Shown: positions 11,981-64,000 of the stretch, piece by piece
Layout of the letters: every line of letters begins with the position of its first letter
Numbering within the stretch: position 1 is the first letter of the stretch
DNA from: Elusimicrobiota bacterium
GTDB taxonomy: Bacteria > Elusimicrobiota > Elusimicrobia > F11
Length of the DNA: 64,000 nt
Assembly (NCBI GenBank): GCA_022072025.1
Contig: JAJVIP010000011.1
Location: 1-64,000 of the forward strand
Direction of reading: 5' to 3'
Program-made: the position numbers and the translations under genes
Notes under the pieces: generated by a model
Database searches by the model: none
What the model saw: the letters and a program-made list of their open reading frames with translations, nothing else
What the model was told of the DNA's origin: nothing

Positions 11981-13533
11981 AACGCAAAGAGAAATGGTTT
12001 TATCATGGTGACATCGACGGGTTCTTCGGGTTGTTTATCGACAATTTGATTCAACTGATGTTGATTTCGGTGCTGTGCCGGTACGCCTGCGGTTTTCCCC
12101 TGGAATTAATCACGGAGCGTATATTGCCGGGGGTTGGGCTCTCCATTTTTGTGGGCAATCTTTTTTACGCTTGGCAGGCTCGGAAACTGGCATTAAGCAA
12201 CCCTGAGAAAAAGGTGACCGCGCTTCCTTTTGGCATCAACACCGTAAGCCTGTTGGCTTTTATTTTCTTGGTCATGAGCCCGGTCTACAATGAAACAGGA
12301 GATGCGAACTTGGCCTGGCAGGCCGGTCTGGGTGCTTGCTTGGTCAGCGGAGTGATTGAAACGTTGGGCGCTTTTGTCGGGACATGGATTAAACGACACA
12401 CCCCTCGCGCCGCGCTCCTTTCAGGCCTGGGAGGAGTGGCGCTGTCATTCATCGTGCTTGGATTTTCTTTTCAGATTTTTTCCACGCCGGCCTTCTCGCT
12501 GATTCCCATGATGTTGGTTTTGTTTTTTTACGCGTCGAAAATTCGCCTTCCCTTCCATTTGCCTTCTGGCGCCATGGCCATGCTCATTGGAGGAATTCTA
12601 GCCTGGTGTCTCAAATGGATGGGTTTCTTAGATTTCACATTGCTGCAAGAACCGATGGCCCTTTCATTAAATGTTCCCATCCCGGCCTTTTCAGAGATAT
12701 TCGCTTCTCTTCAAGGGCCCACCGGCTGGCAAATGATATCGGTGGTTATCCCGGTGGCCTTGTTTAATGTGATTGGATCGATTCAGAATTTGGAAAGCGC
12801 TGAAGCCGCCGGGGACTCCTTTGACACCCAACCCACCCTGTTGGTAAATGGTCTCACCTCTCTGTTGGCTTGCGGTTTTGGAGCCCCCTTTCCCACCTCG
12901 CTTTATATTGGCCACCCGGGATGGAAATCGATGGGCGCGCGAACCGGATATTCCATTTTGAATGGGGTTGCCATTGCGCTTGTGTGCATGACGGGGGGCA
13001 TTAACCTTATTCTTAAAATGATTCCCATGGAGGGGGCTTTGGGAATTCTCATTTGGATTGGGTTGGTCATTGTCGCGGAAGCCACGACCAAAACTGAAGC
13101 CAAACATGGCGTGGCTGTTGCTTTGGGACTGGTGCCGGCTTTCGCGGCTTGGGTGCTCAGCATCATTGAAACCACCTTGCGCGTGGCTGGAACCGACTTG
13201 TACACCGTGATTGACCAATTTAAAGGCGAACTGGCGATTCAAGGAATTCTTTCGCTGTATCAAGGTTTCTTGCTCATTTCGATTGTTCTCTCCGCCATTT
13301 TGGCCCATGTCATTGACCGGCAATTCCTAAAGGCGGCCTGGTGGAGTTTTTCTGGAGCGCTTTTTTCGTCCGTGGGATTGATCCACGCCTATCAATTAAC
13401 ACCCTCGGGTCTTCACACCTCGCTGGGGTGGTTGACCGCTCCTTGGTTTACCTTTGCCTATGGTTTTTTGGGCGTCACCTTGTTGGTGATGAGTCGGCTG
13501 AGCCCGAAACAATTCGAACCCTCTAACTTGTAG
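11977..13533 (+). CDS. NCS2-like permease of unknown substrate
   Basis: A 518-residue integral membrane protein with about 12-14 helices. The N-terminus KWFYHGDIDGFFGLFIDNLIQL and the segment PGVGLSIFVGNLFYAWQARKLA, followed by VTALPFGINTVSLLAF, resemble the xanthine/uracil/AzgA-like permease superfamily: the ALPFGINT stretch sits where NCS2 proteins have their TM3 signature. FGAPFPTSLYIGHPGWKSMGARTGYSILNG near residue 305 corresponds to the second conserved unwound-helix region. The substrate is not predictable. The start at 11977 has GAGGAGG at 11961-11967 and overlaps the previous stop by 4 bp. The longer open frame from 11758 lies inside the FlgO-like gene and is rejected. Confidence 0.75.
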   Translation: MKRKEKWFYHGDIDGFFGLFIDNLIQLMLISVLCRYACGFPLELITERILPGVGLSIFVGNLFYAWQARKLALSNPEKKVTALPFGINTVSLLAFIFLVMSPVYNETGDANLAWQAGLGACLVSGVIETLGAFVGTWIKRHTPRAALLSGLGGVALSFIVLGFSFQIFSTPAFSLIPMMLVLFFYASKIRLPFHLPSGAMAMLIGGILAWCLKWMGFLDFTLLQEPMALSLNVPIPAFSEIFASLQGPTGWQMISVVIPVALFNVIGSIQNLESAEAAGDSFDTQPTLLVNGLTSLLACGFGAPFPTSLYIGHPGWKSMGARTGYSILNGVAIALVCMTGGINLILKMIPMEGALGILIWIGLVIVAEATTKTEAKHGVAVALGLVPAFAAWVLSIIETTLRVAGTDLYTVIDQFKGELAIQGILSLYQGFLLISIVLSAILAHVIDRQFLKAAWWSFSGALFSSVGLIHAYQLTPSGLHTSLGWLTAPWFTFAYGFLGVTLLVMSRLSPKQFEPSNL

Positions 13534-13627
13534 AATCCCAACCAACCGGGAACCTGAAGAGCACCCTCTTGTTCCAAGTGCTGCCTCAGTCTCAACCAAC
13601 ATTCCAAATCAACTAAGGAGTAATGAA

Positions 13628-14263
13628 ATGAAATTATCTGCTCTCAAAATCGCCGCATTTGTGGTTCTGGGTCTATCCATGAGCCCCGTAACCCAAGCCG
13701 AAGTTAAAAAAGTTAAACCTGTTCAGAGTCCCCATCAAATGGCGAAAGTGGATGTGGCCAACAGCAAATTAACCTGGATTGGAAAAAAAGTGACTGGTCA
13801 ACACAATGGATCGCTCCTTCTTAAAGATGGAGAACTTCATCTGGCCAAAAATGAAATTGTGGGTGGAACGTTCAATGTGGACATGACCAGCCTGACCGTG
13901 GAGGACCTCAAAGATGAAAAATCAAACCAAAACCTGGTTGGACATTTGAAGTCAGATGATTTCTTTAGCGCCGCCACCAATCCCATCGCCACCTTTAAGA
14001 TTGTTTCCGTTAAGCCCATCACGCTGGAAGGCGCGACCCATGAAGTTCAGGGGACGCTGACCATCAAAGGCATCACACATCCTTTGAGTTTTCCGGCCAC
14101 GATCACTGTCAACCAAGGTTTGGTTTCGGCTCAGGCCAAAGAAATTAAAGTGGACCGAACCCTCTATAACATCCGTTACGGTTCAGGAAAGTTCTTTCAA
14201 AACTTGGGCGACAAAACCATCAACGATCATTTCACGGTTGATTTGACGTTGGTTGCGAAATAA
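13628..14263 (+). CDS. YceI family periplasmic protein
   Basis: The 211-residue protein has a Sec signal peptide (cleavage after about THR-QAE, residue 24) and a lipocalin-like YceI domain. The patterns seen are NSKLTWIGKKVTGQHNGSL, EIVGGTFNVDMTSLTVEDL, LVGHLKSDDFFSAATNPIATFK, GTLTIKGITHPLSFPATI and the closing INDHFTVDLTLVAK. YceI proteins bind long isoprenoid-type amphiphiles in the periplasm. A clear AAGGAG lies 8 bp before the ATG. The gene is monocistronic in appearance, followed by a strong stem-loop. Confidence 0.92.
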   Translation: MKLSALKIAAFVVLGLSMSPVTQAEVKKVKPVQSPHQMAKVDVANSKLTWIGKKVTGQHNGSLLLKDGELHLAKNEIVGGTFNVDMTSLTVEDLKDEKSNQNLVGHLKSDDFFSAATNPIATFKIVSVKPITLEGATHEVQGTLTIKGITHPLSFPATITVNQGLVSAQAKEIKVDRTLYNIRYGSGKFFQNLGDKTINDHFTVDLTLVAK

Positions 14264-44502: not shown

Positions 44503-45527
44503 ATATTGCCATTATCAAATTGGGAGCGTTGGGCGACGTGGTCAGGACAACGTCTTTGCTTCGCCCCTTACATCATCGATATTCAAATTCGAAAATTTGG
44601 TGGCTGACATCGGCGGCAGCCCTACCGCTGCTCAAAGGCAATCCGCTCATCCACAGTGTCATCCCATTAACAACCGGCGCACCTTGGCAGACCACGGACT
44701 CCATGGATTGGGTCATTTCCTTGGACGAAGACAGGTTGGCAGCAGAGATTGCTTCTAAAATGGGGGCAAAAAAAATAACCGGGGTTTATGTGGGGCCACA
44801 GGGCAACACAACTTACACCCAAGACAGCCGCGCCTGGTTCGATATGAGTTTGTTGAACCGCGACGCCGACGGCGGATTGGCGACCGCCAACAAACTTAAA
44901 AAAGAAAATATCCGTACATATCCGGAAATCTTGATGGAAATGTTGAACATTTCCAGAGCCACCAAACAAGACCTCTTGCCGATCGTCGCTCTCGATCCCA
45001 TCGAAACGGCGGCGGTGGCCCGTGATTATGGGAAACGTATCAAGCCGGGCTCGAAAATAATTGGGCTTAATTTGGGAAGCGGAAAACGCTGGGAAAACAA
45101 ACAGCTCACTGTGGAAAAGGCGCTGGAGTTGATAAATGCCTTAAGCCACCTCCCGGCGACCCTGTTTCTTTTGGGTGGGCCCGAAGAAAAGGAACGCAAT
45201 GAAGAAATTGCGCGGATTGCTCAAGGAAAAATCATCGACACAGGCACAGACAATTCATTGACACGATTTGGCGCGATCATTGGCCTGTGCGACGCCATCA
45301 TCACCACCGACAGTCTCGCGATGCACATGGCCACGGCACTTAAGAAAAGAACTATCGCGTTTTTCGGCCCCACCTCAGCGACAGAAATTGAACTGGGGGA
45401 GCGGGGATCCAAATGGTTTCCTGCCGTCGCCTGTGAATGCTTTTATACTTCGCGGTGCATGAAAAACGCTTTCTGCTTAAATACTCTGGATTGTGCGGCC
45501 ATTGCGAAATTCATTGAAAAATCTTAA
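44499..45527 (+). CDS. Glycosyltransferase family 9 (heptosyltransferase-like)
   Basis: The 342-residue enzyme begins MNIAIIKLGALGDVVRTTSLLRPL, the GT9 signature with the Gly-Asp of the acceptor site. The C-terminal part has IGLNLGSGKRWENKQLTVEKAL, TLFLLGGPEEKERNEEIA and ITTDSLAMHMATALKKRTIAFFGPTSATEIE, where the nucleotide-heptose is bound. GT9 enzymes add heptose to LPS core, so this cluster may also make core sugars. The last ~35 bp overlap the next ligase gene. Confidence 0.86.
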   Translation: MNIAIIKLGALGDVVRTTSLLRPLHHRYSNSKIWWLTSAAALPLLKGNPLIHSVIPLTTGAPWQTTDSMDWVISLDEDRLAAEIASKMGAKKITGVYVGPQGNTTYTQDSRAWFDMSLLNRDADGGLATANKLKKENIRTYPEILMEMLNISRATKQDLLPIVALDPIETAAVARDYGKRIKPGSKIIGLNLGSGKRWENKQLTVEKALELINALSHLPATLFLLGGPEEKERNEEIARIAQGKIIDTGTDNSLTRFGAIIGLCDAIITTDSLAMHMATALKKRTIAFFGPTSATEIELGERGSKWFPAVACECFYTSRCMKNAFCLNTLDCAAIAKFIEKS

Positions 45528-47322
45528 CGCGCTCGTACTGGCCATCCTGGCCCTCGCCTATTTGTTTCGCGGAGCCAAACAGCCCGCTTCATTCGCTGTT
45601 GTTTTTATTCTTATTCACGCCCTCCTCTTATGGACCTACGTCCTCAATAAAAACGAAAAAATTCCCGTTAAAACCGTGGCCCCCTTCGCGTTGTTCTTTT
45701 GCTGGAGCTGGTTGGGATTATTGAGTGAACCGCCTTTGGATATTTTTTTATTCTTTGAAGCGAAGCTTTGGTTGCTTCTAATTTTCGCCGTCCTTGTCTA
45801 CGCAAATGCGGATAAAAACACCGGGTCTCTTTTGCGTTACGGCCTCCTGACATTGGCCACGGTCGAAACCGTTCTGATCAGCCGAACCTCCGATTGGAGA
45901 TTCACCCAAACGAGCGGACTTCTCGCCAACTCACTCCACTCCGGAATTTTGTTGCCGGTGGGATTGGCCTGTATTGCTCATGAACTGAAGGAAACCAAAG
46001 CGTTTTCGAGAATCTTTTATTTGTTATTGGCCCTGGCGCTGGGCATGTTGTACGCGCTGGTGTTATTACGCTCACGCGCAGCCCTGGTGTGTATCGGCTT
46101 ACTGGTAATTTTTCTCTATCCGCGAAAAAGATTGGTGGGAGCAATCGCAATCATGTGCGCGACTCTTGTGGTTCTATGTTTTTCGAGTGCTACCGTACGG
46201 GAATTTTTTGAAATTGGAAGTATTTCGTTGGGCCAATCGACCGGCCGTCTTTCCATATGGAAAACCGCGTTAAAGGCAATTGCCGACGCGCCGTTAATCG
46301 GTCATGGTCTTGGAAATTTTGAGCAAGCCTATACCCAATTTCAGCAACCGAGCAGTGAATATTACCGCTTTGGAAAAAGTACTGCATTTGCTCACAATGG
46401 ACTTCTCCAAGTGGCCGCGGAAACAGGAATTGTGGGACTCTGTTTGGCCATCATGGGATGGGTGCGGGCAGTGGTTCCGGCGTTTAAGCGTCCATTGGAC
46501 CCCGAGCAAAGATGGCTATTGTCAATCGTCCTGGTTTACTTCGTGACATCCTGGTTCAATTACAGCGTTGCGCTTCCCTTCAATGGATTGGTGTTGTCCG
46601 CCGTGTTGGCCCTGATAGTTAGAAATTCATTGATGGCAAAAGAAAAAAAGGTTTCGTTGCTTAAATTCAAAGCTGTGCCATTGATGATGATGGTGATACT
46701 AATCCCCTTCCTTCTCCTCTATGGGGCATCCGACCTGCTGATGAGAAAAGGGAAACTATCCACCGCACTGAGCGTGTGTCCTCTCCGAGCCGAAGGCTGG
46801 TACCAGTCAGCCATTTCAAAAATGTCAGAAAATCAAGTTAACGAGGCCATGAGCGATTTGAATATGGCGATCAAACTGGATCCCAAAAATTCTTTTTACT
46901 GGTTCCGTCGAGCCCTATTGTTGTCCAACAACGGGCCCCATCAAAGAACCGAAATTAATATCGCGTTCGAAAAGGCCCGTGCTTTTGGTCCCCATCATGC
47001 GCCTTTCTATGTCGTGGAAGGTTTTTACCGATTCTCTCTCAAAGAAATGGAGCCGGCTTTATATCTGTTTCAAAAAGCGCGGGAGCTTGAGCCGCAAGCT
47101 TCAACACCCCCATACGGAATTGCGCTGGTCCAAATGGAAAGAAAGGAGTGGAACGCGGCGCGCGAACAATTAGGGATAGCGAAAACAATAAAAGAGAATG
47201 AATCCCGCCTCCGGCAAATTTCTTCCGATCAGAAAGATTACTTCAATTCACCATATGCGAAAGTTTTGGGTTCGGTTCGGAGTGATGACATTGAGGACAA
47301 GATCAAGAGCATCCCCCAGTGA
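45493..47322 (+). CDS. O-antigen ligase family protein with TPR tail, second copy
   Basis: A 609-residue membrane protein with about 11 helices (to residue 420) and the Wzy_C signature: STGRLSIWKTALKAIADAPLIGHGLGNFEQAY, then KSTAFAHNGLLQVAAETGIVGLC (His of the HN..LQ..AE.G motif). The C-terminal 170 residues are TPR-like (EAMSDLNMAIKLDPKNSFYWFRRALLLS, EMEPALYLFQKARELEPQAS). The start is uncertain: GTG at 45493, TTG at 45502, or TTG at 45514 (KNLNALVL), all overlapping the GT9 end. Architecture parallels the protein at 33029; one may ligate and the other polymerise. Confidence 0.83.
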   Translation: MRPLRNSLKNLNALVLAILALAYLFRGAKQPASFAVVFILIHALLLWTYVLNKNEKIPVKTVAPFALFFCWSWLGLLSEPPLDIFLFFEAKLWLLLIFAVLVYANADKNTGSLLRYGLLTLATVETVLISRTSDWRFTQTSGLLANSLHSGILLPVGLACIAHELKETKAFSRIFYLLLALALGMLYALVLLRSRAALVCIGLLVIFLYPRKRLVGAIAIMCATLVVLCFSSATVREFFEIGSISLGQSTGRLSIWKTALKAIADAPLIGHGLGNFEQAYTQFQQPSSEYYRFGKSTAFAHNGLLQVAAETGIVGLCLAIMGWVRAVVPAFKRPLDPEQRWLLSIVLVYFVTSWFNYSVALPFNGLVLSAVLALIVRNSLMAKEKKVSLLKFKAVPLMMMVILIPFLLLYGASDLLMRKGKLSTALSVCPLRAEGWYQSAISKMSENQVNEAMSDLNMAIKLDPKNSFYWFRRALLLSNNGPHQRTEINIAFEKARAFGPHHAPFYVVEGFYRFSLKEMEPALYLFQKARELEPQASTPPYGIALVQMERKEWNAAREQLGIAKTIKENESRLRQISSDQKDYFNSPYAKVLGSVRSDDIEDKIKSIPQ

Positions 47323-47402
47323 ATAAACTGCATGTCAACATTTTCTAGAGACAATCACTCACAACTCTCTACAAGAAAATTGTGCTTTGATAGGATCGAT
47401 TC

Positions 47403-48155
47403 ATGAACCTCCTATATCATTATTATCCAAATCTCTACACGCGATTTAGTCGTTTCCTTAAAGGTACTGTTCCAACGCGTCAATCTGTATTGAGGGAATA
47501 TTTCCGTGATAATTCCATTCAATTACTGCAAATAGGGGCGGGAACGTGTTTGTATGAAGGCTGGTGCCATGGCGACATTGATTATTGGAATCGAACCCTA
47601 TCTGGCAAGAAGAATATGAAAACGGCCCAGATTTTCCTGGATTTAGAGAAACCATTCCCGTTTGTAGAAAACACTTTTGATGCCGTTTATTCGTCACATG
47701 TACATGAACATTTTCCATATCGTGTAGGAGAACGAATATTGGCTGAATGTTTTCGCATCCTTAAGCCAGGCGCTCAGTTACGGATTGTTGTCCCCAAAAT
47801 TGAGTACTACTTTGAAAAATACATGCAACGACAGATAGGAATCGAAAGCCACCCAACCAACCTGGAAAATATTGTGTCAGATTTTCGGAAAGAAACTGGA
47901 GCCCCCTTGGACACCACCACGCTTCTCAACACTATCTTTTTGTGTCACGGCCACCGCATGCTGTATGATTTTTCACAAATTAAGGACTAAATGCAGAGAG
48001 CAGGTTTTACTGAGATTGAACGTCAACACATTGATCGGTCGAGCAATCCAAACCTTTGTAAATTAGAATCATGTCTGATCGGCCGGAAGAAAGATGATGG
48101 CATTGAATATCATTTGGCGGCCAGCTTGGTTATTGAAGGCAAAAAGACAACTTAA
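47403..48155 (+). pseudogene. Methyltransferase gene broken by an in-frame TAA
   Basis: The first frame (195 codons, 47403-47990) has the SAM motif SIQLLQIGAGTCLYEGW, then EKPFPFVENTFDAVYSSHVHEHF and VLKPGAQLRIVVP-like FRILKPGAQLRIVVPKIE. It ends at TAA 47988-47990 exactly where the family continues. The same frame reads on as MQRAGFTEIERQHIDRSSNP to a natural TAA at 48153-48155, giving the expected C-terminus (HGHRMLYDFSQIKD-stop-MQRAGF). One base change explains it (for example TTA or CTA to TAA). Readthrough is possible but not supported. AT-rich compared with the genes upstream. Confidence 0.85.
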
Positions 48156-48171
48156 TTTTATTGGAGGGAAC

Positions 48172-48888
48172 TTGCGCGGCTTGTGGCATATCAAACAATT
48201 AATAACAAAAGTATTTGATGCAATTGATCCGACCATCCTTAATTACAAACCTGAAGGGGGCCTGGTTGATTTGGACAAGGTATATTCTCCTGAGGATAGC
48301 TCTAAGCGGGATAAGGAGATCTACCTTTCTTTTGCAAAGTGAATCGAGGATGTCATACATCCCCAGCTTGGCGTGATAGATATCGGATGTGCGACTGCTA
48401 AAACATTGTCGCATTTTCAACGACAAAAGATAAATATCTTTGGTCTGGATGGTGCGAAAACGGTCCTCGAAGTAATGGATGAAACAGTTAAGCCCCATGT
48501 TCAGATTCTTGATTTAAGAAAAAATATTCGCGATCAATTTCAAAATTTTAATAAGAAAGAATTCGACCTTATAATATGCACTGAAATCATCGAGCATTTG
48601 GAAGCTCAATTTGAAGATATCTTTCTCAACAATATGATGCACTTCGTGACAAGAAATTTGGTTTTCTCCTGGTCCCCTGAATGGGACCCTCATCGTGGAA
48701 CAGAAAGACAAGAGCATTGGAATCCAAGACCATATCCGTATGCCATCAATAAGTTGGTAAAAAATTATGGCTTAACTTTCTGTGAAGAAAAAACTTCCTC
48801 ATTGAAAAAACTTCTCTCTGGAAATTCGCGAATTGCATACGAGTTCAATCATTGGATTAAAAACATAATGGTTTCCGAAATGGTTTAA
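48172..48888 (+). pseudogene. Second methyltransferase gene broken by an in-frame TGA
   Basis: The frame from a TTG at 48172 (GGAGGG at 48163-48168) runs to TGA 48340-48342, after KEIYLSFAK. It then continues in the same frame as IEDVIHPQLGVIDIGCATAKTLSHF, which holds the SAM-binding motif, followed by LIICTEIIEHLEAQFEDIF, to 48888. The stop falls between the usual N-terminal helix and motif I, so the product is dead unless read through or restarted (for example at 48373, giving 171 residues with motif I incomplete on its N side). The frame is open upstream to 48094 but overlaps the previous pseudogene there. Confidence 0.82.
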
Positions 48889-50360
48889 ATGAATCTGTCT
48901 TTCAAAAGCCCGACAACTTTCATTGTGCCAGCGAAAAATAAAATGAGATAAATCGGCTCAACCGTCAATGCGTAGCGTCCATCAACGCCACCTCCCATGC
49001 TGCTCATAAGTAAATGTAAAAATTCGACTGCAATTAGTGTAAGTGCAATAGGCCGGGCCCGAGAATTAAACATCAACATCAATGATGACAAAAATCCGGC
49101 TAATGGTAGCCAGGCTCCGGTGAGGACAAGTGGCCAGAGAAGTGTGGAAATAATGTCGCCGTATTCATAAGGATATACGGTCGTTGTTTTAATACGCGCT
49201 AAATCCCTTCCTAATTTTTCGGGATGAATTCGTAGCATTGTGCGCGCTTCTGGAATATCCGTGGTTTCTTTCCAAAATATTTGAATTCCTCTAAACCAAA
49301 AAATGTCTTTAGGGAGCAGATTTGTGGGCCTACGTGAAGCATAAGTTAAATAACCCCATAAATCTTCAAAGCGACCTTTCACAAAAAGGATAGGTTTTTG
49401 ACGGATAGCCAAAATAGCAAGATTCTTAAAAAGCTGATCTCCCTGCGCCTGATAGATTTTCGTTTTTTTTAGGTTTATTACCGGACCGTCTTGATTCCCC
49501 AAGGTCCAGGCATGGTCATGACGAATCACAGCGCGATTCTTCTCATATATAGGCAGAAGTGTTTCCCTGATATCATCCGATATTTCCTGAGCATCCAAAT
49601 TCAATAAATATCCGCTAGAACTGAAAAGCACCTCCCCTGATTGCCCGGTAAGGCTAAAGGATCCCCGAAATGAATAGTTGATCATAGCCCAAGCCAACAA
49701 TGGAATCAGGAGCGTTACGATGAATATAAAGACTGAGAGCATACGCCGCTGTATCGGAGTCCACACAAAAGATAACAATAGCGCTGAACCCAGCGCGTAT
49801 CCGGATGGGCGTACCAAGATTGATAAGAAACAAAAAATTCCTGTCCATGCAAACCATTTCCAACCTTTTCTCACCGCGAATAGGAAGGTAAGAATGGAGA
49901 GGAGAAAAAAGAAAGCAAACAAATTGTCGGACATGATGGTATGTGCGTACATCATTGGACGTGGCAAAACGGGTGTGATAACAGCGATTAGGACAGCGAT
50001 CCATAATGATCTATGAATGAAGAAGAAAAGAATTCCAGCTATGATTCCAGTGAGGAATAAGAGGACAACCTGAATAATTATCACACCAAAAAAGCTTTTT
50101 GTGAAAGTGAGAATTAAATAAAGAAAAAGCGGATATCCCGGTGTTCGTATCTCAGATAATGAAAATTGGAAACGATAAACAAGTGAGACGGCTGGATGGA
50201 AATAACCTCCTGAGTCAGGCTGAAAAAAAGGGGCAGGAAAAATAAAAAACAAATTAAAGTGTGCACAGAGGACTATGGTATAAGCCAGACTAAATAAAAG
50301 GATTACTACACGATTATTGATTAGGTATTTTCGATCTATCTTGAGGGATAAATTTTCCAT
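48885..50360 (-). CDS. GT39-like polytopic membrane protein
   Basis: A 491-residue protein with 10-11 helices; its N-terminal loop has FQPDSGGYFHPAVSLVY and RTPGYPLFLYLIL, the Asp-containing first loop and TPGYP of the PMT/ArnT-like GT-C group. HTIMSDNLFAFFFLLS follows, where a second conserved Asp lies. The soluble C-terminal part is short. It would transfer a polyprenyl-linked sugar on the periplasmic side. Transcribed against the polysaccharide operon, its end overlaps the second broken methyltransferase by 4 bp. The strand switch, AT-richness and neighbouring pseudogenes mark this as a later addition. Confidence 0.78.
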   Translation of the reverse strand: MENLSLKIDRKYLINNRVVILLFSLAYTIVLCAHFNLFFIFPAPFFQPDSGGYFHPAVSLVYRFQFSLSEIRTPGYPLFLYLILTFTKSFFGVIIIQVVLLFLTGIIAGILFFFIHRSLWIAVLIAVITPVLPRPMMYAHTIMSDNLFAFFFLLSILTFLFAVRKGWKWFAWTGIFCFLSILVRPSGYALGSALLLSFVWTPIQRRMLSVFIFIVTLLIPLLAWAMINYSFRGSFSLTGQSGEVLFSSSGYLLNLDAQEISDDIRETLLPIYEKNRAVIRHDHAWTLGNQDGPVINLKKTKIYQAQGDQLFKNLAILAIRQKPILFVKGRFEDLWGYLTYASRRPTNLLPKDIFWFRGIQIFWKETTDIPEARTMLRIHPEKLGRDLARIKTTTVYPYEYGDIISTLLWPLVLTGAWLPLAGFLSSLMLMFNSRARPIALTLIAVEFLHLLMSSMGGGVDGRYALTVEPIYLILFFAGTMKVVGLLKDRFI

Positions 50361-50446
50361 GCATACGAATTTAACTATTTAACCATTTGAAAGACACCTC
50401 TAAGGTTACATTCTAAGACTGCTTGACGCGCTTGAACAAGTATTAC

Positions 50447-55362: not shown

Positions 55363-57111
55363 ATGAAAGAAAATAAGGCTCTTCATTATTTAGCGATTGC
55401 CTTGGCCTTCTCCACGCTTTTCCTCATTTTTGCCGGAGGACTGGTGAACTCCATGGGGGCGGGTCTCTCCGTTCCTGATTGGCCCTTGTCGTACGGACAA
55501 ATTATGCCGCCCATGGTGGGGGGCGTTTTCTATGAGCATGGCCATCGCATGATTGCCACAGGAGTGGGGTTCCTCACCGTTCTTTTTGCTTCGTTCGTAT
55601 CATTCACAGAAGATCGCGCTTGGATAAAAAAAGCCGCCTGGATAGCCGTGGGCCTTGTCATTCTTCAAGGAGTCTTGGGCGGTTTAACAGTCCTTTTTTT
55701 GCTTCCTCCGCCTATTTCGATTGCGCACGCCACTCTCGCTCAAACATTCTTTTGCCTGACCATTGGCCTGGCGATTTGGACCTCCCCTTTTTGGCGAAAA
55801 ACATCCCTTGTTCGACAAGAGAATTCCGAGTCCATCCCGCTGCACCGTTTGGGGATGGCCTTGCTCGCCACCTGTTTTATTCAACTGATCTTGGGCGCCA
55901 CCTTACGGCATACCGGACGAGCGTTGGCCTTCCATATTCTCGGGGCTTTCACAGTGGCCATATTTGCTTGTTGGTTTGTTTGGAGAGTATGGAGAAATTA
56001 CGGCGAGTTTGGTGCTTTAAGACGAGTGGCCGCTTTACTTCTGGTCGTCTTGATTTCGCAGTTGGGATTGGGCGTCGCCACTTATTTCCTCTTGAGGCAC
56101 AGGTTTGACGTGATTCCCCCTCCCTTTCCCGCGATCCTGACCATAACGGCGCATGTGGCGATCGGCGCCCTCCTCCTCGGACTTTCGATGCTGGCGATTC
56201 TCTTGGCCTATCGAACCAAACCCGCTCATTTACCCTCGTTGATGACCACCCTCAAAGATTATTTCACGTTGACCAAACCCGGTATCGGTTTCATGGCCGG
56301 TTTTACGGCGCTCGCGGGGTTCATTCTCGGAAGCCCTGGCGAGGTCAATTTTCTTCGTTTGATTCATACCTGCTTGGGCACATTGTTGGCGGCGGCCGGA
56401 GCCGGGTGCCTTAACATGCTCATTGAAAAAGATATCGACGCTCAAATGGCCCGCACCCAATCTCGCCCATTGCCCTCAGGCCGGCTCAAATCTGGAGAAG
56501 TTTTTTTCATTGGGCTTCTATTCTCCTTGTCCAGCGTGGTTTATTTAAGTTGGATGGTGAACTTCATCACGGCTTTTTTTGGAGCGCTGACCTTAAGCGT
56601 CTATCTATATTTTTATACCCCTTTAAAAAAAATATCGGGTGTTTGTGTATCCATTGGCGCGATTGCCGGAGCGCTCCCCCCCGTGATGGGTTGGACAGCC
56701 GCCACCGGGCGACTCTCCATTGAGGCTTTGGCTTTGTTTGGGATATTGTTTTTTTGGCAATTCCCCCACTTCTTATCTCTGGCCTGGCTTTATAAAGAGG
56801 ACTACGCCTCAGCCGGGCTGCACATGCTCCCCAACCCTCTTTCTGGTGATCGAGCGACGGCCTTACAAATGTTTTGGTCCAGCGCAGCTTTGATGTTGGT
56901 GAGCTTCCTGCCCACTTTCCTCGGGTTAACCGGACGTTTGTATTTTCTGATAGCGCTCTCGCTTGGAGTTGTTCTTCTTTGGTTCAGCTATGGCTTTTTA
57001 AAAGACATAGGCCGCCCGCAAGCCCGCCGCGTTTTTCTTTTTTCCCTTCTCTATATCCCTGTTCTCGTGACTTTTATGCTGATCAATACGCCAGGCAAGG
57101 GTTTGCAGTGA
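55363..57111 (+). CDS. Fused heme A synthase and heme O synthase (CtaA-CtaB)
   Basis: A 582-residue fusion. Residues 1-290 are CtaA (COX15): GGLVNSMGAGLSVPDWPLSYG, then VFYEHGHRMIATGVGFLTV and HATLAQTFFCL, with the heme-binding His residues. Residues about 300-582 are CtaB (COX10), the protoheme farnesyltransferase: DYFTLTKPGIGFMAGFTA, then NMLIEKDIDAQMARTQSRPLPSGRL with the Asp-rich prenyl-diphosphate motif D..MART..RP. The chain makes heme O from protoheme and oxidises it to heme A for the oxidase. Such fusions occur in a few lineages, with the CtaA half N-terminal here. Confidence 0.92.
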   Translation: MKENKALHYLAIALAFSTLFLIFAGGLVNSMGAGLSVPDWPLSYGQIMPPMVGGVFYEHGHRMIATGVGFLTVLFASFVSFTEDRAWIKKAAWIAVGLVILQGVLGGLTVLFLLPPPISIAHATLAQTFFCLTIGLAIWTSPFWRKTSLVRQENSESIPLHRLGMALLATCFIQLILGATLRHTGRALAFHILGAFTVAIFACWFVWRVWRNYGEFGALRRVAALLLVVLISQLGLGVATYFLLRHRFDVIPPPFPAILTITAHVAIGALLLGLSMLAILLAYRTKPAHLPSLMTTLKDYFTLTKPGIGFMAGFTALAGFILGSPGEVNFLRLIHTCLGTLLAAAGAGCLNMLIEKDIDAQMARTQSRPLPSGRLKSGEVFFIGLLFSLSSVVYLSWMVNFITAFFGALTLSVYLYFYTPLKKISGVCVSIGAIAGALPPVMGWTAATGRLSIEALALFGILFFWQFPHFLSLAWLYKEDYASAGLHMLPNPLSGDRATALQMFWSSAALMLVSFLPTFLGLTGRLYFLIALSLGVVLLWFSYGFLKDIGRPQARRVFLFSLLYIPVLVTFMLINTPGKGLQ

Positions 57112-60134: not shown

Positions 60135-60143
60135 TGGTTCATC

Positions 60144-61676
60144 GTGTTTAAAACTTTGGGAATGGCCTGTATATTGGGGCTCATTGCCTTCAACGCCACT
60201 TCAATTCAAACTTTTCCTCCTGTCAATGCCGACGACGTAAGCAATGCCATTCTTGGAGACCATTATGGGCTGACAGGTGAAATTCGTTACCCGTTGATGA
60301 AAAACGTGGTCCACCCTGATTTCTATGATCTTTCTTCCTCAGATCAGTATGCCTATCGCGGCATTTACACCTTATTTACTGCGTTTGGCCAAAGGTTGAT
60401 TGGAAAAAGTTTTTTCCAACACCGGCTCTTCTCATTTATAGGATGGGTTTTGATTGGTCTACTTATGGCCTGTTTCCTGGCCAAGAACTGGGGCCCCAAT
60501 ACTGCAATTATTGGTTCCATTCTTTGGTATGGAAATCTTTGTGGGATTTTGGCTTCCCATTTAATACGGCCAGATATTTGGCTGGCTTTCTTTGCAACCA
60601 TTCAACTCATTTTAATTCCTTATATACACAAGCGACCTCATCTGGGATTTTTTTTCTTCGCAATGGCTGGCCCTATTGCCATGGGATTTCATCCTCATGG
60701 AATTTTGCTCATTGCGTGGAGTCTATTGATTTTTTCTCATTTTCTATTCAAGCAAGGTAATTTGGAAGGTTTTTGGGGCTTTGTTTTAGGTTTGCTGAGT
60801 GGTGTGGCCATCTATGCCCTATATGTTGATGTTGAAACTGCTGCCATTTCTAAATTTACCTACGCTATGGCGATCCATAAATCCAACTTTGGCACATGGT
60901 TGACGCGCTTGAACCCATTGACTTGGATAAAAGACACTTTTCTTTTATTTATATTTCCCGATTCATTTTATTTACCCTCAATATTAAGACTTTCACTCAT
61001 CTGGTATTGGTCTTTTAATTCTTTCTTGTTGGTTTTCATTTTGGCTTCCATTTATTTGATTTGGAATAAAAAAATGAATCGCCTTCTTTGGTCCGTTTTT
61101 TCACTTTGGGCTGTCTTATTCTCCGGGATGGGTTTTGGATATATCCGCCGCGAAGCAATTTACATTCTTCCTATTATCGTATCGATCATTCCGATTATCA
61201 CGTGGTTTATGACAACACTTTATAAAGATAAAAAACCTATTCTCTTGTTCTTAACAAGTTGCATCCTACTGAGTAGCGTATTGTCTACTATTGTCCAAAC
61301 CTCTTTTGCTTCACAGCATTGTCCTCCGATCACCCAATCATTTTCTAAAACTGAAGAAATCATCGGGACGAAAAAACAGCGAATCATGGGACCGGCTTAT
61401 TTTTGGTTCATGTTCGGAAATGAATTGTTGGATATAGAAGGCCTGGAAATTGATTACTTTTATTCCCTACGCATAAGAACCGCCGAGATTATGAATCGAT
61501 CAAAACCGGACATCGTGATTACAGACTTATATGTCCGCCGACGTTTTCCATTTATCGACCAATGGCTGACTCAAAATGCCTCGCTCATCGGGATCATCCC
61601 TGAAAATCCCAACCATGGCGAACTAAGATTTTATCGATTTTCTTGGAAGGAACCTGTGAGTGAAAAAACCCTGTGA
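60144..61676 (+). CDS. Polytopic membrane protein, GT-C/GT39-like
   Basis: A 510-residue protein with about 11 helices. The first loop FPPVNADDVSNAILGD has an Asp pair where GT39-like enzymes place their catalytic Asp, and ILASHLIRPDIWLAFFATIQLIL matches their second conserved Asp region. The sequence is otherwise not assigned. It starts with a GTG at 60144 (MFKTLGMAC), 9 bp after DUF420, with AT-rich composition, so it may be unrelated to the oxidase operon. It overlaps the convergent methyltransferase by 46 bp at the 3' end. Acceptor and donor unknown. Confidence 0.72.
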   Translation: MFKTLGMACILGLIAFNATSIQTFPPVNADDVSNAILGDHYGLTGEIRYPLMKNVVHPDFYDLSSSDQYAYRGIYTLFTAFGQRLIGKSFFQHRLFSFIGWVLIGLLMACFLAKNWGPNTAIIGSILWYGNLCGILASHLIRPDIWLAFFATIQLILIPYIHKRPHLGFFFFAMAGPIAMGFHPHGILLIAWSLLIFSHFLFKQGNLEGFWGFVLGLLSGVAIYALYVDVETAAISKFTYAMAIHKSNFGTWLTRLNPLTWIKDTFLLFIFPDSFYLPSILRLSLIWYWSFNSFLLVFILASIYLIWNKKMNRLLWSVFSLWAVLFSGMGFGYIRREAIYILPIIVSIIPIITWFMTTLYKDKKPILLFLTSCILLSSVLSTIVQTSFASQHCPPITQSFSKTEEIIGTKKQRIMGPAYFWFMFGNELLDIEGLEIDYFYSLRIRTAEIMNRSKPDIVITDLYVRRRFPFIDQWLTQNASLIGIIPENPNHGELRFYRFSWKEPVSEKTL

Positions 61677-62326
61677 TAGGGCAAAAAGGAGAAAGGAACT
61701 CCAAACTCTCTGATTTTTACATTCTGGATTTTAATCATATCAAGAATCCATGATCTTGAAATTTCGTGTTTATGCCATTCTTCACGCATATCATCCGACA
61801 TCGGATATTTTCCAGCAATTAACTTTTTAATGCCAAAAGCCAAAACTATTCTTTTGGTCCAGTTGATCAGTGTCTCATTCGGAACAGTGATAACAATAAG
61901 GCCTTGGGGTTTGATCACGCGAAACATTTCATCGATAACCAATTTGGGGTTCTCTACATGCTCCAATACTTCTGAACAGATGACACAATCAAATAAACCG
62001 CGTTCAAATGGAAGTCGCTCGATATCCGCCTTGATTAACTCACAGTTTGGTTTATCTTTCAACCTTTCGCGAGCCTGATTGAGCAATGTATCGGACAAAT
62101 CAATCCCCACCAACCTGTCTCCGTTTAATTTCTCCAAAAGGTTTCCAGACCCACAGCCCACATCAAGGATTTTTCCTCCCGAGGCACTGCCACATAAATT
62201 CTTAATCATTACAAACCTGCGATTTTCGACCCATCTGATGGGGAGCCCTGATTGAGATATAAACAAATCAGGCATGTATTTTTTGGCCATTTCTTCATTC
62301 CACGACTCATGGTCATTTGAATTCAT
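61631..62326 (-). CDS. Class I SAM-dependent methyltransferase
   Basis: The 231-residue protein shows motif I GKILDVGCGSGNLLEKL (about 52-68), acidic residue at GIDLSDTLL, then LIKADIERLPFERGLFDCVICSEVLEHVENP and IKPQGLIVITVPN, in the standard order. It resembles small-molecule (UbiE/COQ5-like) or sugar methyltransferases. Its start overlaps the stop of the GT39 gene upstream by 4 bp (ATGA), so the two are coupled. The 3' end overlaps the convergent membrane protein by 46 bp. Confidence 0.83.
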   Translation of the reverse strand: MNSNDHESWNEEMAKKYMPDLFISQSGLPIRWVENRRFVMIKNLCGSASGGKILDVGCGSGNLLEKLNGDRLVGIDLSDTLLNQARERLKDKPNCELIKADIERLPFERGLFDCVICSEVLEHVENPKLVIDEMFRVIKPQGLIVITVPNETLINWTKRIVLAFGIKKLIAGKYPMSDDMREEWHKHEISRSWILDMIKIQNVKIREFGVPFSFLPYHRVFSLTGSFQENR

Positions 62327-63993
62327 GCCTGATTCTCCAATAGAAAATTTGCCCTTTCCAACTGTCGCTGATAGAGCGCTTTTCGTCCCATTTCTTTATA
62401 AATATCGCCTATGCGAAGGATGGATTCTTCATCTCGGGATATGTCGTAAACAAACAAAGTTCCCCCGATTAATAAAAATGGATTTTTGTTGTTGAGCCAC
62501 GCATAGGCGGCTTTTGTGGAAGGGTTGTGACGGAGCTCCGCACTGACCACCAGCCATTCTACGGGAACATCACTGGGGTTAATCGTCTCCTTTCTAAAAG
62601 AATTCGTAATGGCGGGAGAAAGGACATCTTGATAGTCTATACCCCATGCCTCGGGACGGTTGGAACCCCAATATCCCATCAGAATGGAGGGCTTGATGGC
62701 TTGCTTGTGAATGACTTTTGCAAGAGTTGGGAGATCCTGCCCCCAATCTTGATTGGATCCATCCAACCACTTCCATCCATTTTTTATGCCTCCGACCAAG
62801 GGATTGAAATAGGCCATGTGATGTGGATGTGTGATGAATGACTCAATTACCATCCATCCCATTAACATCCAACATACGATTCTGTCTTTTCGTGATTTAA
62901 GCGAAGAATAATATACACCAATTAATATCGCTAAAAACGGAATGGCAGGTAGAAGATAACGAATCCCAAAATGATTGTTACTAATAAGAACAGAAAACCA
63001 TAAAACCAATATTGGAATAAACAATAAAAATCCCCGACTATTATCTTTCCTTTTAACCAAGGCAATTCCCACAGTGATCCAAAAAAACAGAAGTGGGAGT
63101 GGCGTTTTTATCAGGGATACAGTCGGATAGTAAAACCATCCCTTGGCCACAGCCTCGCCCAAGAGATAACCATCTGACAATCGTTCCTTGTGAAAAGATC
63201 GCCCTTGACTTAAAGCTTGATTCAACATCTCTAGATTGAAATTATAAAGGCTTAACACAACAAACAGTGTTGCCAATATAATAATAGCTGCCCCTACAGC
63301 ATCGGATTTCTCTATTCTTTTATTCTCAATTTTTCTTTGCAAAAGGTACATCAAGATGAAAATGGGAGCTAATAGGAAACCAGTAAATTTGGATGAAATC
63401 GCTGCTCCCGCTGATATACCTGAAAGAAGAGCGGTGGTCCGATTCCGTTTCATCAGCCATTCGTAAAATAAGAATATTGATCCAGTCATAAAAAAAGTGA
63501 CATAAATATCATTCATCGCCAAGGACCCGTTACCTAGAATTAAAGGGTCAAACAAAAACACAGAACAACTGAGTAACGCTGCTTGCAATCCAAACAGTTT
63601 CTTACAAAAAAAGTAAATAACAATACCCAATACAAGCGTTATCAAGATACTGGAGAAACGACATAAGAAAATTAGTTTTGGAGCGGGAACAGTATTATGA
63701 AAAAATATTTGGTACCCATTTCTCCATGCATCATTCAAATTCATGAAACGTTCGATTGGCCATTTGGCACCCTGGAGAAGCATAGGAACTCCGGAGATTA
63801 TTTTTTGTAAGGGTGGATGCTCGATGTTAGGCGTTAATTGTCCTGTTTTTAAATAAATTAAACCGGCCGGCGCGTAAATGACCTCATCGTAAACCAAAGA
63901 GGTGTTCTTGGCTGTTGAAATCAATAAATACATTGAGGGAAGCAAAATCAAACCTAACAATAAATAATGTTTCTTTTTCACCAGCTTATCCAA
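62323..63993 (-). CDS. GT39-like (phospholipid carrier-dependent) glycosyltransferase
   Basis: A 556-residue protein with about 11 helices and the first-loop motif SLVYDEVIYAPAGLIYLKTG (catalytic Asp-Glu) followed by NIEHPPLQKIISG, then SLAMNDIYVTFF. These match the Dol-P-Man/ArnT-like family. The soluble C-terminal third holds LDGSNQDWGQDLPTL, a feature of this family in bacteria. Its upstream end lies at the window edge: the frame opens with a TTG at 63993 but has no stop before base 64000, so the true start may lie outside. It is coupled to the methyltransferase that follows. Confidence 0.78.
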   Translation of the reverse strand: MDKLVKKKHYLLLGLILLPSMYLLISTAKNTSLVYDEVIYAPAGLIYLKTGQLTPNIEHPPLQKIISGVPMLLQGAKWPIERFMNLNDAWRNGYQIFFHNTVPAPKLIFLCRFSSILITLVLGIVIYFFCKKLFGLQAALLSCSVFLFDPLILGNGSLAMNDIYVTFFMTGSIFLFYEWLMKRNRTTALLSGISAGAAISSKFTGFLLAPIFILMYLLQRKIENKRIEKSDAVGAAIIILATLFVVLSLYNFNLEMLNQALSQGRSFHKERLSDGYLLGEAVAKGWFYYPTVSLIKTPLPLLFFWITVGIALVKRKDNSRGFLLFIPILVLWFSVLISNNHFGIRYLLPAIPFLAILIGVYYSSLKSRKDRIVCWMLMGWMVIESFITHPHHMAYFNPLVGGIKNGWKWLDGSNQDWGQDLPTLAKVIHKQAIKPSILMGYWGSNRPEAWGIDYQDVLSPAITNSFRKETINPSDVPVEWLVVSAELRHNPSTKAAYAWLNNKNPFLLIGGTLFVYDISRDEESILRIGDIYKEMGRKALYQRQLERANFLLENQA

Positions 63994-64000
63994 TTCACAT

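Follow-up and report, generated by a model that had tools for sequence, protein, structure and literature searches.

The stretch of DNA considered here, hereafter the window, comprises bases 1-64000 of a 161 kb contig, in an assembly of 3.64 Mb in 43 contigs. Within it, a run of genes with surface-polysaccharide functions (a GT2 glycosyltransferase, two of GT1/GT4 type, a methyltransferase, a heptosyltransferase-like GT9 protein and an O-antigen-ligase-like Wzy_C protein) precedes two adjacent methyltransferase reading frames, gene 1 and gene 2 (Table 1). An earlier note on this DNA had placed the pair at the end of a polysaccharide cluster, and the order of the glycosyltransferase, heptosyltransferase-like and O-antigen-ligase-like genes bears this out. 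Each frame contains a single in-frame stop, for which that note gave position and codon correctly: TAA at 47988-47990 in gene 1, TGA at 48340-48342 in gene 2. The end of gene 2 is overlapped by 4 nt by the gene on the opposite strand. The DNA of gene 1 and gene 2 occurs once in the assembly. ARAGORN finds no tRNA in the 64-kb window. Further along, at 55363-57111, a 582-residue frame beside cytochrome oxidase genes looks by eye like heme A synthase fused to protoheme IX farnesyltransferase.

Table 1. The two interrupted methyltransferase frames and their neighbours (window coordinates)
Feature	Coordinates	Strand	Description
Upstream neighbour	45493..47322	+	O-antigen-ligase-like (Wzy_C), TPR-containing; final intact member of the polysaccharide run
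Gene 1, 5' part	47403..47990	+	Methyltransf_11 core; 195 codons, ATG 47403 to TAA 47988-47990
Gene 1, 3' part beyond the stop	47991..48155	+	54 codons to TAA 48153-48155; matches the C-terminus of intact homologues
Gene 2, 5' part	48172..48342	+	Likely TTG start behind GGAGG; 56 codons, TGA 48340-48342
Gene 2, 3' part	48343..48888	+	Methyltransf_12/25 core; 181 codons, TAA 48886-48888
Downstream convergent neighbour	48885..50360	-	Low-GC membrane protein, intact frame; PMT_2 match below cut-off

Homologues were gathered from the class (235 genomes), the phylum (340 genomes, those of the class included) and plasmid records; the nearest genomes compared belong to other genera of the same family. 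With the genome itself counted, 82/340 phylum genomes have matches to gene 1 and 56/340 to gene 2, mostly short matches to the core. Plasmid searches gave distant matches only, in 13 and 5 records (loci L050 and L051 were used). The alignment compared gene 1 with 9 homologues and gene 2 with 14. For the gene 1 profile, 5 of the 9 were kept (L005, L027, L028 and L029, short local matches, were dropped) and L053 and L054 were added; for gene 2, 13 of the 14 were kept (L036 had an unclear start) and L052 was added; choosing homologues alike over their full length biases both sets towards ones that run past the stop. Interrupted relatives do exist elsewhere: single matches in three genomes (G244, G132 and G160) have internal stops. 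The genome under study is otherwise rich in methyltransferases, with 28 PF08241 matches, and holds no near second copy of either gene; its closest other matches reach 41% identity over 54 residues and 27% over 78. A search of genome contigs for related loci also produced L021-L023; these had an exonuclease-family look by eye, were judged to stem from a chance seed and were dropped.

The 5' part of gene 1 belongs with the class I SAM-dependent methyltransferases, matching PF08241 at 38.4 bits against a cut-off of 21.2 (E 2.1e-9). The whole frame, 47403-48155, contains the one TAA, no frameshift and no second in-frame stop. The earlier note held that the family continues past this stop, and here it was right. 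Against a profile made from 7 homologues alone, the piece beyond the stop scores 11.2 bits by itself (E 1.2e-5, versus at most 3.4 in 1000 shuffles), and the fused frame scores 128.4 versus 103.0 without the post-stop residues, a value reached by 0/2000 shuffles (maximum 118.1) and by 0/149 natural pieces, that is, pieces of other window proteins (maximum 108.0). All 9 aligned homologues continue past the stop column without a stop there; the matches that cross the stop (residue 196) include ones covering query residues 33-219, 33-219, 35-208 and 37-223. The alignment-invariant residues F202, L242 and E245 are all kept among the 54 that follow. Because the post-stop piece scores alone and the fused score exceeds every shuffle and every natural piece, gene 1 reads firmly, at the level of sequence, as interrupted where intact homologues continue.

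One way to understand this stop is as a change in the architecture of gene 1 that did not kill it. At 47982-47993 the TAA is followed directly by an ATG, with AAGGA 4 nt upstream of that ATG (AAGGA-CTAA-ATG), an arrangement that could allow the C-terminal piece to be made. Such sites are rare: among 266 internal in-frame ATGs of 21 window genes, 5 are preceded by a match of at least 5 bases. Gene 1 would then be freshly split, pieces of 195 and 54 residues being translated from one message by stop-start coupling and reassembling into one methyltransferase, and the retention of the three invariant residues in the smaller piece fits this. In its favour stands the rarity of such a site, which puts a ribosome site and a start codon right at the stop; on the other side, 0/9 aligned homologues are split there, all of them running through without a stop, the arrangement was spotted only in hindsight, and the adjoining gene 2 has no comparable restart. 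A working split enzyme is on balance very improbable.

Gene 2 presents its lesion near the other end of the protein. The frame is open from 48079 up to the TGA, and translation most probably starts at TTG 48172, closely preceded by GGAGG. The part beyond the stop exceeds the cut-offs of PF08242, PF13649, PF08241 and PF13489, which places it too among the class I SAM-dependent methyltransferases; the frame has no frameshift and no second in-frame stop. A segment N-terminal to the core spans the TGA site in 14/14 aligned homologues, the matches that cross the stop (residue 83 in query numbering) include 57-229, 55-242 and 60-235, and the invariant L, Y and A of that segment are kept in gene 2. 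At its other end, 48860-48888, gene 2 is shorter than the aligned homologues, most of which have an LPF- or LPL-containing tail.

The profile scores for gene 2 admit a different account, in which the gene is unbroken, starts at GTG 48373 (the nearest start codon after the stop) and has an open frame before its TGA by chance. Against the profile of 14 homologues the pre-stop piece alone scores -1.9 bits, which is not significant; fusion raises the score from 59.4 to 64.4 bits, and this 5-bit gain is matched by 17/2000 shuffles and by 2/144 natural pieces. The alignment of the fused frame begins at profile position 4, instead of 39. Two things make a start at the GTG doubtful: it lacks a Shine-Dalgarno sequence, whereas TTG 48172 has its GGAGG, and every one of the 14 homologues carries the N-terminal segment before the SAM motif, with its invariant residues preserved here. 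An intact gene 2 is accordingly quite unlikely. The claim that this family, too, continues across the stop is supported in moderate degree; since the pre-stop piece scores nothing alone and some shuffles and natural pieces match the gain, gene 2 is to be called probably interrupted.

Other approaches were less informative. No NCBIfam model exceeds its cut-off for gene 1 or gene 2; a codon-usage test failed to separate coding from other frames, with log-odds near zero in the right ones; and structure models of the two read-through frames, with mean pLDDT of 36.0 and 34.5, were useless.

Frames that stay open on both sides of a stop might also be read as recoded, by a suppressor, as selenocysteine or pyrrolysine, or through stop reassignment. 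The earlier note preferred decay, on the ground that the two stop codons differ, and several further observations uphold that preference. TAA, TGA and TAG terminate 23, 14 and 6 of the 43 long window ORFs tallied (out of 44, with 13502-14260 left out). Opposite the TGA the 14 homologues show I, L, A, V or S, with Cys or Trp in 0/14; opposite the TAA, 7 homologues show five different residues (C, R, H, A and L). No SelB match in the genome exceeds the cut-off, the best one lying in a 398-residue frame that is probably EF-Tu, and the gene 2 TGA was not classed as a selenocysteine codon. Given two stop codons, ordinary use of all three at ORF ends, the homologue residues and the SelB result, recoding is scarcely credible.

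A more prosaic explanation locates one or both stops in the data: the genes would be intact, and the stops errors of sequencing or assembly. The assembly is a 43-contig draft, and both lesions are single in-frame stops without frameshift, just as erroneously read intact genes would look. The genome can be asked how often such stops appear. A stop lies inside the domain match in 1/24 cases for PF13489 (the one case being gene 1), 0/28 for PF08241, 0/28 for PF00535 and 0/19 for PF00534; the pooled figure of 1/99 is a rough guide to the background rate, as the models detect only stops within the matched domain and PF08241 reaches neither lesion. Because domain-internal stops are thus rare elsewhere in the genome, two independent substitution errors within 352 bases would be unlikely, unless coverage there is poor. 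Error is an unlikely explanation overall.

The base composition of the pair sets it apart from the cluster it follows. The four pieces of the pair have a GC content of 0.37-0.42 and the convergent neighbour (48885-50360) one of 0.41, versus mostly 0.45-0.53 in nearby genes, so that the two genes sit in a low-GC patch of ~3 kb. The patch is compatible with lateral gain, and suggests that the pair may be a cassette gained from elsewhere and no long-standing part of the cluster; the class, phylum and plasmid searches gave no close homologue by which a donor could be named. Viewed over the whole window, there are two low-GC patches, 47400-50400 and 60135-64000, at about 0.38-0.43 versus about 0.50. 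Large membrane proteins, one of which matches PMT_2 weakly, lie in these patches together with methyltransferases, including an intact one at 61631-62326, and both patches look as if they were laterally acquired glycan-modification cassettes.

The best explanation of the locus, to which we give a probability of roughly 0.7, is decay: a single nonsense mutation has inactivated each of the two neighbouring genes for class I SAM-dependent methyltransferases, which may have arrived together in low-GC DNA. On gene 1, ribosomes would stop after 195 residues; the product would keep the methyltransferase core and lose ~54 C-terminal residues, which we take to carry the last strands of the class I fold. 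On gene 2 they would stop after ~56 residues, before the catalytic core, leaving a leader peptide and little else, the nearest restart being the GTG that has no Shine-Dalgarno sequence. Both products are presumably inactive. The loss may be recent, to judge from the single lesion in each frame and the lack of any frameshift; the absence of further decay marks (frameshifts, extra stops) from both frames fits recent decay, error or a still working gene.

If decay is the right reading, a methyl mark on a cell-surface glycan would presumably have been lost as a result, as the earlier note suggested. By their position gene 1 and gene 2 may be decorators of the polysaccharide made by the preceding genes; in sequence both are generic class I methyltransferase matches. 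Confirmation would add one more loss of a surface-glycan modification by nonsense mutation, here in two neighbours at once. The finding is an ordinary one, of an already known kind and of minor importance. If confirmed, it would also carry a caution: automatic annotation would list these truncated methyltransferases as functional genes.

Both cores pass the gathering score of the Pfam class I SAM methyltransferase families (Methyltransf_11/12/25), the window frames differing in that each is interrupted. Among enzymes with solved structures, the gene 2 profile matches UbiG-type proteins (best E 1.1e-7) and WbdD (best E 4.5e-5); these matches are weak and allow no substrate to be inferred, and WbdD chains run to 471-569 residues versus about 238 for gene 2. 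Surface-glycan genes with comparable lesions are known from Salmonella, whose O-antigen pseudogenes have been reviewed; the review also cautions that pseudogenes get misannotated through sequencing errors (PMC11078800). The psi-fepE and rfbE pseudogenes it describes resemble the present case as lesions in surface-glycan genes, there with a changed surface glycan; unlike the genes here, one encodes a chain-length regulator and the other acts in sugar conversion, and their phenotypes have been tested (PMC11078800). Another parallel is found in E. coli O101/O162, where the methyltransferase gene of the Onovel32 rfb locus is disrupted in 58 of 191 loci and O-methylation needs the intact gene (PMC13168486). 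In both cases a methyltransferase of a surface-polysaccharide cluster appears to have been inactivated; in E. coli the remaining cluster is little varied (PMC13168486). There the lesions are frameshifts and insertion elements in one gene, established by comparing strains and analysing glycans (PMC13168486); here two neighbours carry one nonsense codon each, in one genome.
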